Made by a program: the position numbers and the translations under genes
Source of the DNA: Clostridia bacterium
Lineage (GTDB): Bacteria > Bacillota > Clostridia > Oscillospirales > CAG-272
Reading direction: 5' to 3'
NCBI GenBank assembly: GCA_017621755.1
Contig: JAGASL010000041.1
Coordinates: 1 to 64,000, forward strand
Length of the DNA stretch: 64,000 nt
Notes under the pieces: generated by a model
The model's input: the letters and a program-made list of their open reading frames with translations, nothing else
Told to the model about the DNA's origin: nothing
Databases searched by the model: none
Shown here: piece by piece, positions 1-35,340 of the stretch
Position numbering within the stretch: position 1 is the stretch's first letter
How the letters are laid out: every line of letters starts with the position of its first letter

Positions 1-1101
1 AAGAAGTGAGAAGATTTCCAGACTGTCAATGAACTTATGTGCTTCCGCCTGCCCGCCTTTGATTTCAAACGTGAAAATGGAACCGCCGCCGTTCGGGAAG
101 TATTTCTGATACAGTGCATGATCAGGATGGTCGGCAAGGGAGGGATGGTTGACCTTTTCCACCTGCGGATGATTTCTAAGGAATTCAACGACCTTCTTCG
201 TGTTCTCGGCGTGCCGTTCCAGGCGCAGCGACAGGGTTTCTATACCCTGCAGTAGCAGGAACGCCGCAAAGGGAGAGATGGATGCGCCCGTATCACGGAG
301 CAGGATCGCACGGATGTAGGTAACAAATGCCGCAGGACCAACAGCCTTGACAAAAGAAACGCCGTGATAGCTGGGGTTGGGATCGGCAATGGCAGGATAC
401 TTGCCGCTTGCTGCCCAGTCAAATTTACCGGAGTCAACAATGATGCCACCGAGCGTTGTACCGTGACCGCCGAGGAACTTTGTTGCGGAATGGACGACGA
501 TATCTGCGCCGTGTTCGATCGGACGGATAAGATACGGTGTACCGAAGGTATTATCTACTACGAGAGGCAGTTCGTGCTTATGTGCAAGCTCAGCCAGTGC
601 GTCAATGTCGGGAATGTCGCTGTTAGGGTTGCCAAGGGTCTCGATGTATATCGCTCTGGTATTCTCCTGAATCGCCGCCTCAACTTCGGCAAGGTCGTGA
701 ATGTTTACAAAGCTTGCGGTAATACCGAAGTTCGGGAGGGTATGTGCCAGCAGGTTATAGCTGCCGCCGTAGATGGTCTTCTGTGCCACAAAGTGACCGC
801 CATTTTGACCGAGCGCCTCAAGAGTATAGGTAATTGCCGCCGCACCCGAGGCGAGAGCCAAAGCCGCTACACCGCCCTCAAGTGCTGCCACACGCTGTTC
901 TAAAACATCCTGTGTAGAATTGGTAAGTCTGCCATAGATATTTCCGGCATCGGAAAGGCCAAAACGTGCCGCTGCATGAGCGGAGTTGTGGAACACATAC
1001 GAAGTGGTTGCGTAGATCGGTACTGCACGGGCATCGGTTGCAGGATCGGGATTTTCCTGACCCACATGGAGCTGTAAAGTTTCAAATTTGTAGTTAGACA
1101 T
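1..1101 (-). CDS. metY: O-acetylhomoserine aminocarboxypropyltransferase (sulfhydrylase), 3' end cut by window edge
   Basis: A PLP enzyme of the Cys/Met metabolism family, which condenses O-acetyl-L-homoserine with sulfide (or methanethiol) to make homocysteine or methionine in the cytosol. The visible 367 residues start MSNYKFETLQLHVGQENPDP, typical of this family, and contain the PLP-lysine motif HSATKFLGGHG. About 60 C-terminal residues should lie beyond the left edge, judged from the usual length near 430. The start is the ATG at 1101, preceded by GAAAGGAAATAACGATT. It lies downstream of a leader peptide and terminator (1224-1424), which suggests transcription attenuation by Met and/or Cys supply. 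The family is secure; the preference for O-acetylhomoserine over cystathionine-type substrates is inferred from the N-terminal sequence. Confidence 0.9.
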   Translation of the reverse strand, partial: MSNYKFETLQLHVGQENPDPATDARAVPIYATTSYVFHNSAHAAARFGLSDAGNIYGRLTNSTQDVLEQRVAALEGGVAALALASGAAAITYTLEALGQNGGHFVAQKTIYGGSYNLLAHTLPNFGITASFVNIHDLAEVEAAIQENTRAIYIETLGNPNSDIPDIDALAELAHKHELPLVVDNTFGTPYLIRPIEHGADIVVHSATKFLGGHGTTLGGIIVDSGKFDWAASGKYPAIADPNPSYHGVSFVKAVGPAAFVTYIRAILLRDTGASISPFAAFLLLQGIETLSLRLERHAENTKKVVEFLRNHPQVEKVNHPSLADHPDHALYQKYFPNGGGSIFTFEIKGGQAEAHKFIDSLEIFSLL

Positions 1102-1223
1102 AATCGTTATTTCCTTTCGTGATTGAATGTTTGATGGTTATATACCCGGCACATTCGTCCGAAACGGAAATTTTCTCTGACGAGCTTTTCAAAATAGTTT
1201 TCCATGAGATTTTACCTGCCTTA

Positions 1224-1262
1224 CAAAAACATAAACCGGAAGACCCCGATAAAGTCTCCCGG
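1224..1262 (-). terminator. Intrinsic terminator inside the metY leader (attenuator)
   Basis: On the minus strand, arms at 1253-1262 and 1236-1245 form a 10-bp stem (CCGGGAGACU with GGUCUUCCGG, two G-U pairs) around a 7-nt loop, followed by a U-rich run (UUUAUGUUUUU). It lies between the leader peptide stop and the metY ribosome binding site, so it can only act as an attenuator of metY. Confidence 0.8.
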
Positions 1263-1289
1263 CTGTAAGCGATTGTGATTCCGCCAAAG

Positions 1290-1424
1290 TCAGGCGGTAC
1301 AAGGGTTTACTCCTTGAATGGAGAACACATCGGAAAAATGAGCGCAGTAAATCATACACATGCCGCAAGTCCACATGCACATCTCCATCATCATAGTATT
1401 GGTGATAGTGTACAGCTTTTTCAT
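1290..1424 (-). CDS. Met/Cys-rich leader peptide of metY (44 aa)
   Basis: A short reading frame with a strong Shine-Dalgarno (AGAAGGAGAACACGGTT before the ATG at 1424) and a start MKKLYTITNT. Residues 11-27 read MMMEMCMWTCGMCMIYC: 7 Met and 4 Cys in 17 positions. The whole peptide has 8 Met and 5 Cys in 44. The stop codon UGA falls in the loop of a small hairpin (CCGCC/GGCGG, 1281-1297), and a terminator follows at 1236-1262 before metY. Seen: the frame, RBS, residue content and terminator. Known: amino-acid operons use such runs of codons for attenuation. Inferred: ribosome stalling at Met or Cys codons when charged tRNA is low would favour read-through into metY. No obvious antiterminator could be assigned by eye. 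Confidence 0.75.
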   Translation of the reverse strand: MKKLYTITNTMMMEMCMWTCGMCMIYCAHFSDVFSIQGVNPCTA

Positions 1425-1473
1425 AACCGTGTTCTCCTTCTTCTTTTATTCACCCATCAATCAGGTTGGTAAT

Positions 1474-1502
1474 AGGATATCACAAATCACCTACTTTGTC
1501 AA
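1474..1502 (-). promoter_or_regulatory. Promoter of the leader-metY transcript with overlapping inverted repeat
   Basis: Minus-strand -35 TTGACA at 1497-1502, 17-bp spacer, and extended -10 TGATATCCT with the hexamer at 1474-1479. The -35 box is embedded in an inverted repeat at 1489-1507 (ACCTA-9 nt-TAGGT, extendable to 8-bp arms with one mismatch). That places a likely repressor operator over the promoter. The regulator is unknown; an Rrf2/CymR-type sulfur regulator is a guess from the pathway. Confidence 0.65.
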
Positions 1503-1604
1503 TAGGTAATTTAAAAATTTTACTTTTCTTTTTTCACACAAGATTTTGACATTATAATTTTAGTGTTAAAACCGGATTCAATAAGTTTGTAGTTGCACGA
1601 AAAT

Positions 1605-35111: not shown

Positions 35112-35164
35112 AACAAAACAAGCCACCCGTGTGTTAGCGTGATACTCTGTAAAGAGCATCACGC

Positions 35165-35340
35165 AGTCAAATCCGTCTTCGACGGATGAAATCCACCTTC
35201 GGTGGATGAAATCGCATTCGCGATGAAATCCTGCTTCGCAGGGGTGAAGTTAGACGGATTTGATTTCATCCAAGGCAACGCCTTGGATTTCATCTGAACG
35301 AAGTGAAGATTTCATCGTGGCATAGCCACGATTTCATGAA
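35165..35340. repeat. Array of mini-hairpins separated by ATGAAAT/ATTTCAT
   Basis: At least six short perfect stems in a row: 35173-35185 (CCGTC-TTC-GACGG), 35193-35205 (CCACC-TTC-GGTGG), 35212-35223 (TCGC/GCGA), 35230-35242 (CCTGC-TTC-GCAGG), 35270-35286 (CCAAGGC-AAC-GCCTTGG) and 35316-35330 (CGTGGC-ATA-GCCACG). The first four are linked by ATGAAAT and the last two by its complement ATTTCAT, so the array has a turning point near 35245-35265, where CAAATCCGTC (left) and GACGGATTTG (right) also mirror each other. It lies between a plus-strand gene end and a minus-strand gene end. Confidence 0.8.

Follow-up and report, generated by a model that had tools for sequence, protein, structure and literature searches.

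A predicted Met/Cys leader-peptide attenuator upstream of metY and a family of CGA-AUG leaders in Clostridia and relatives

The window analyzed here is the whole 64,000-nucleotide stretch of DNA from a Clostridia bacterium. The locus of interest lies near its beginning, on the minus strand, where a gene resembling O-acetylhomoserine sulfhydrylase (metY) is preceded by two short leader frames. Along that strand the order is promoter-like site, frame 1, a hairpin holding the frame 1 stop codon, a terminator, frame 2, and metY. The features are as follows.

1489..1507, no strand assigned: inverted repeat ACCTATTGACAAAGTAGGT, which overlaps the -35 box; possible operator
1474..1502, minus strand: promoter-like site, TTGACA (1502), 17 nt, TATCCT (ending 1474), with TG ahead of the second box; a consensus match only
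1470-1452: inverted repeat ACCAACCTGATTGATGGGT, a second repeat near the promoter
1429..1437, minus strand: segment 1, GGAGAACAC, part of the frame 1 ribosome site and partner of segment 2 in ribosome-free RNA
1290..1424, minus strand: leader frame 1, 44 codons, Met/Cys-rich, with residues 11-27 as the putative control codons
1320..1334, minus strand: segment 2, UCCGAUGUGUUCUCC, codons 31-35 of frame 1 and 5' arm of the antiterminator
1281..1297, minus strand: small hairpin CCGCC-UGACUUU-GGCGG, whose loop holds the frame 1 stop codon
1244..1260, minus strand: segment 3, GGGAGACUUUAUCGGGG, which forms the antiterminator with segment 2 or else pairs inside the terminator
1225..1264, minus strand: intrinsic terminator (stem 1264-1234) with a U-rich tail to 1225
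1107..1205, minus strand: leader frame 2, MENYFEKLVRENFRFGRMCRVYNHQTFNHERK, containing ...NFRFGRMC..., one of the Arg(CGA)-Met leaders
1152..1157, minus strand: CGA-AUG codon pair of frame 2
3..1101, minus strand: metY, O-acetylhomoserine sulfhydrylase-like, ATG at 1101, 366 residues within the window

The name metY was given from the look of the sequence rather than from a family search, and the C-terminus of the protein is missing because the window starts at the contig edge. Judging by its sequence, the promoter-like site TTGACA/TG-TATCCT appears to fit leader frame 1. For comparison we took 100 non-identical regions upstream of metY genes with at least 60% identity; these are not independent of one another, since only exact duplicates were removed. 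Inverted repeats of the ACCTATTGACAAAGTAGGT/ACCAACCTGATTGATGGGT kind occur in 36 of these 100 regions, and the divergent neighbors of metY at two loci (L061 and L043) match the Rrf2 family in Pfam. We infer that the repeats may be an operator for the Rrf2 family, and transcription initiation at the metY locus is probably also under control. The divergent neighbors of metY at L056 and L105 have a similar look to those at L061 and L043. Elsewhere in the window, the Gut-1 RNA of Rfam is matched at 35164-35234 (+) with 53.6 bits (cut-off 50).

The preliminary description of this DNA had placed a leader peptide and attenuator at 1224-1424, a stretch that covers the frame 1 leader and leaves frame 2 (1205-1107) outside. 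Its account of the frame holds. A 44-codon frame lies at 1424..1290 (-) and encodes the 44-aa peptide MKKLYTITNTMMMEMCMWTCGMCMIYCAHFSDVFSIQGVNPCTA, with a strong ribosome site (AAGGAG, 9 nt ahead of the ATG), 7 Met and 4 Cys among residues 11-27, and a stop codon, UGA (1292-1290), inside the small hairpin loop. The terminator with its U-run is also present, but its stem, described as 10 bp, comes to 14 pairs including G-U pairs by scan. Met and Cys make up 12 of the 43 codons after the start, whereas their share over 38 long window ORFs is 4.6% (binomial tail 3e-7). Furthermore, among the 56 window frames that begin with ATG, have a ribosome site ahead, and encode 25-60 aa, frame 1 alone has more than 5 Met/Cys per 17 codons.

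A single universal leader before metY was considered and rejected, as three plans were found; besides that of frame 1, at least two other architectures occur ahead of this gene. Type A consists of a Met/Cys leader, a terminator, and frame 2 (the window, L040, L041, L042, L044, L046, and L035). Type B is an Arg-Met frame without CUCCCGG behind it, and includes frame 2 of the type A loci. Type C is a single CGA-AUG leader, mostly with Met/Cys codons just ahead, in which CUCCCGGGCA pairs with the terminator arm UGCCCGGGAG.

The preliminary description had made its reading depend on the frame and its Met/Cys bias being kept in relatives, and both are kept. The search of related metY upstream regions that it proposed gave a Met/Cys-rich frame of the frame 1 plan, with a terminator, at six further metY loci. 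In addition, a metagenome protein search gave 7 clusters, all of exactly 44 aa and 61-86% identical (E values of 3e-16 to 4e-19 for six and 6e-8 for one), one of which represents 103 contigs. Over the 27 codons after the start at seven loci, Met/Cys account for 65 of 189 codons in the leader frame versus 29 and 3 in the other frames, and Cys is spelled TGC 18 times and TGT 10 times in the frame 1 leaders. At least 9 Met/Cys per 17 codons occur in 3 of 418 ATG frames preceded by a ribosome site (25-60 aa, from 80 named metY loci), and these three are the frame 1 leaders of L040, L041, and L042. The Met/Cys-rich composition of frame 1 is not a product of chance.

Gaps within aligned frame 1 are 6 and 3 nt long (five loci). 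The differences between the window and L040 are distributed 8, 8, and 6 over the codon positions, so the synonymous rates of this pair give no sign of coding selection, and some stretches of the leader beyond the codons match them in conservation. At L046, the frame has no stop ahead of the terminator. Among the 69 genomes of the genus that were searched, 12 carry this metY and two of these have the frame 1 architecture (the window's own genome and G066, locus L035), while the window's terminator sequence occurs in one of the 69.

We asked whether the leader RNA could adopt mutually exclusive structures, and the folding proposed in the preliminary description did reveal an antiterminator: UCCGAUGUGUUCUCC (segment 2, codons 31-35) pairs with GGGAGACUUUAUCGGGG (segment 3), the 5' half of the terminator. 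In an alignment of five of the seven type A loci (L046 and L035 left out), the ten-pair core of this helix is kept in 98% of cells compared to 30-60% with the partner slid; no covariation can be counted because the pairs hardly vary. The pairing of segment 2 with segment 1 (GGAGAACAC, the ribosome site with codons 32-35) is kept in 82% of cells compared to 42-67% when slid. By sequence and folding, the frame, its codon cluster, and three alternative pairings (1:2, the 2:3 antiterminator, and the 3:4 terminator) are all seen at the locus and are conserved. The free leader RNA folds better than its shuffles (z -3.2). In the free RNA of the window, the 1:2 pairing prevails and the antiterminator has P = 0.00. 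The resting state varies among relatives, since the free RNA already favors the antiterminator in L042 (P 0.96) and L046 (P 0.80).

To follow the structure during translation, we computed folds for the RNA in front of a ribosome whose leading edge lies at P+15, with the RNA behind the ribosome excluded and the terminator 3' arm not yet made, for six of the seven type A loci (L035 left out). In the window, the probability of the modeled antiterminator stays at 0.96-0.99 throughout codons 11-26 and is 0.89 at Cys27, then 0.10 at codons 28 and 29, 0.21 at codon 30, and 0 from codon 31 on. Cys27 is the final Met/Cys codon of the cluster, and the modeled antiterminator is lost immediately after it. 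At the other five modeled loci, it is lost between codons 25 and 29. When pairing behind the ribosome was permitted, the antiterminator appeared at most Met/Cys-region positions in L040, L042, L044, and L046, and in the lowest-energy fold of the window it appeared within that region at codon 19 only, so the result for the window depends on the usual assumption of no pairing across the ribosome.

Our data indicate that the locus holds the parts of an attenuator: a short frame with a ribosome site between promoter-like site and gene, enrichment in codons for the product, a terminator, and an antiterminator whose computed formation depends on ribosome position. The preliminary description had proposed leader-peptide attenuation at the Met/Cys codons, with stalling there preventing the terminator. 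Our computations support both parts, in that the antiterminator was found, is conserved, and in the model forms only with the ribosome on or before the cluster. With high confidence, we read the 44-codon Met/Cys frame and its mutually exclusive antiterminator and terminator as a predicted ribosome-mediated transcription attenuator of metY that would respond to starvation. A shortage of charged tRNA-Met or tRNA-Cys would stall the ribosome at any of codons 11-27, where it would hold segment 1 off segment 2. Segment 2 would stay free, and therefore the 2:3 helix would form ahead of the terminator 3' arm and polymerase would read through into metY. With ample Met and Cys, the ribosome would translate through segment 2 and reach the stop, or would depart and let 1:2 re-form. 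With segment 2 covered or held in 1:2, the terminator would stop transcription. Frame 2, further downstream, may provide additional control.

Frame 2 belongs to a far more widespread group. When the leader region was searched against the DNA of 98 relatives, five of the seven matches outside its own genome fell on frame 2. The hexamer CGAATG lies within 300 nt in 69 of the 100 upstream regions, compared to an average of 11.2 and a maximum of 22 in shuffles. No other hexamer is as frequent upstream of metY, the next being AAAGGA with 62. A peptide scan blind to codons found Arg-Met leaders at 60 sites in 60 of the 100 loci. CGA encodes the Arg of the Arg-Met pair at 59 of the 60, and CGC does so at the remaining one, in L075. 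By comparison, the remaining Arg codons of these frames are CGA in 36 of 301 cases. A pyrimidine directly follows CGA-AUG in 68 of 69 frames, a set that includes likely chance frames such as those of L055 and L093, and amino-acid choice does not explain this pyrimidine. Just before CGA-AUG in type C, 69 of 140 codons are Met/Cys, and just after it in type B, 53 of 153 are. A pairing of GUCGAA with a downstream UUCGAC, considered as the cause of the CGA-AUG invariance, was rejected, as inspection by eye showed it in some type C leaders and not in others. In the window (1109-1101), the frame 2 stop lies 5 nt before the metY ATG, and the frame spans the metY ribosome site. The stop of its kin in many relatives comes tens of bases earlier.

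CGA is the least used Arg codon in the ORFs of the window (43 of 891). At 36 tRNA places in this genome, ARAGORN identified 35 distinct tRNA genes. These include tRNA-Arg genes with the anticodons ACG, CCG, CCT, and TCT, one each, and none with TCG, in a set that is incomplete (tRNA-Cys, -Asn, -Ile, -Phe, and -Trp are missing from it as well). Going by this incomplete set, CGA is probably, though not certainly, read by inosine wobble here. An assay based on a bacterial his leader showed slower decoding of CGA than of CGU and CGC (PMC4046918).

These observations raise the question whether frame 2 is the main regulator of metY, with its NFRFGRM peptide arresting the ribosome upon a sulfur metabolite and frame 1 as an auxiliary. 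Arg-Met frames occur at 60 of 100 loci compared to seven for frame 1. The peptide is conserved by position, with its Arg at codon 13-18 from an ATG preceded by a ribosome site in 58 of 66 frames (at codon 17 in 34), so that it combines a conserved motif with a near-fixed distance from the start. Among 32 NFRxGRM peptides, the final Arg is CGA in 31, compared to 1 and 6 for the two preceding Arg codons. TnaC, SpeFL, and plant CGS1/MTO1 are known arrest peptides, and the kin of frame 2 would resemble them in being a position-conserved peptide that ends at a near-fixed codon. Against a main role for frame 2, no terminator was detected between the codon pair and metY in any of the 36 type B frames run, out of 41, with a detector of limited sensitivity (it recovered 4 of the 7 upstream terminators already known). 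We regard this alternative as rather unlikely. A pause in type B frames could possibly act through Rho, mRNA stability, or coupling to metY.

Type C leaders suggest a distinct use of the codon pair. Here CUCCCGGGCA lies at a near-fixed distance 3' of CGA-AUG and pairs with the terminator arm. We analyzed 26 of the 28 type C loci (in L078 and L113, no terminator arm was matched by the search expression) and aligned 21 of the 26 (L079, L094, L121, L122, and L125 left out). In this alignment, the outer helix of the antiterminator is kept in 99% of cells and the inner helix in 71%; its covariation is within the range of shuffles (75 of 500 as high), and that of the terminator helix is somewhat above it (3 of 500 as high). 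We modeled the 26 loci with the 3' arm of the terminator already made. When the P site is still a codon short of CGA, the terminator arm pairs in the 3' direction (P >= 0.5) at 3 of 26 loci. The count rises to 19 of 26 once CGA occupies the P site and reaches 26 of 26 once AUG does. By a cruder scoring, the flip falls at CGA for front edges of P+13 through P+15, a codon later for P+12, and a codon earlier for P+16 or P+17. In ribosome-free RNA that does not yet include the 3' arm, the antiterminator is favored in 22 of 26, so termination in type C would require a parked ribosome.

Given the modeled flip at CGA-AUG and this need for a parked ribosome, we tentatively suggest, at somewhat less than even confidence, a large family of sulfur leaders in Clostridia and relatives in which a slow CGA would act as a gate, the codon pair would be the conserved part, and leaders without a terminator would use the pause for another output. 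Ribosomes past the Met/Cys codons would park at CGA-AUG with the front edge over the antiterminator arm, leading to termination. Ribosomes starved of Met or Cys would halt at least one codon earlier and leave that arm free.

An order-wide scan found the exact type C pattern in 5 of 117 genomes. It precedes metY in L174 (the place of L007), L176, and L173, where the assembly shows a premature stop within metY. In L126 and L175, which are from one genus, it precedes amino-acid ABC permease-like genes, named by the look of the protein, and the type C family is therefore not confined to metY. Scans of the phylum (398 genomes each) gave 5 matches to the exact type C pattern, two of them likely by chance, and 4 to NFRxGRM, three of them likely by chance; none of these five likely chance matches was a leader before a metY-like or permease gene.

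In Bacillota, the SAM-I riboswitch (RF00162) controls methionine genes. The preliminary description had seen no SAM or T-box riboswitch at metY, and indeed neither has an Rfam covariance match in the window or at 40 metY loci of relatives. SAM-I goes unmatched at the metY leader, and the one copy found in the genome (L172, G000:C5:10920-11004) lies ahead of a metK-like gene, which suggests that the genome divides its sulfur control, with a riboswitch for one part and leader peptides for another. It could be argued that the RNA itself is the sensor, as a metabolite- or protein-binding element before metY to which the Met/Cys frame is incidental, since some non-codon parts of the leader are as conserved as its codons and the free RNA outfolds its shuffles. 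However, nothing in Rfam matched at the frame 1 leader or near metY at the 40 relatives' loci, Met/Cys enrichment is limited to one reading frame, leaders of the other architectures have Met/Cys codons in common and not sequence, and the modeled switch flips where the codon cluster ends. We consider an RNA sensor very improbable. It is harder still to credit that frame 1 encodes a functional Met/Cys-rich small protein (e.g., for metal or thiol binding) with the terminator as a simple dampener, for although its length of 44 aa is constant in seven clusters, it has no Pfam or NCBIfam match, its codons 31-35 are used for antiterminator pairing, and relatives carry dissimilar short peptides at the same place.

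Leader-peptide attenuators that respond to amino acids are well known from the trp, his, leu, and ilv operons. As computed here, frame 1 shares with them a short frame rich in product codons, an antiterminator/terminator alternative, and a decision made by ribosome position. It differs in coding two sulfur amino acids jointly and in the gene, metY. Cys leader peptides in mycobacteria and other Actinobacteria are reportedly the subject of Canestrari 2020, cited in PMC13236596. Short Cys-codon frames before sulfur genes in mycobacteria and other actinobacteria, which frame 1 resembles, are described in PMC1262725, with Cys runs near the stop and no obvious terminators. Compared to those, frame 1 mixes Met with Cys, holds them mid-frame, has an intrinsic terminator, and is not a poly-Cys frame; the terminator-less type B leaders are closer to the actinobacterial ones than frame 1 is. 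Within Bacillota, a leader-peptide attenuator is described at ilv-leu of S. aureus (PMC5794164), and His leader peptides are described ahead of hisS paralogues in bacilli (PMC2965389). The latter are regular Bacillota leader-peptide attenuators, as is predicted for frame 1, and differ in the amino acid, histidine, and in the gene. Among the literature matches listed, with most subscription papers outside their scope, we found no Met leader-peptide attenuator and no description of a metY leader peptide, a Bacillota Met/Cys attenuator, or a CGA-AUG leader.

It is very likely that frame 1 represents a true leader-peptide attenuator for Met/Cys, and the CGA-AUG leader family that includes frame 2 is the larger surprise. 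If the attenuator reading is true, Met/Cys would join the amino acids that are sensed through leader-peptide attenuation, and a Bacillota-type genome would divide its sulfur control between a SAM riboswitch at metK and a leader peptide at metY. If the reading of the codon pair is true, the near-invariant CGA-AUG would be a rare case of synonymous codon choice as a conserved regulatory feature.
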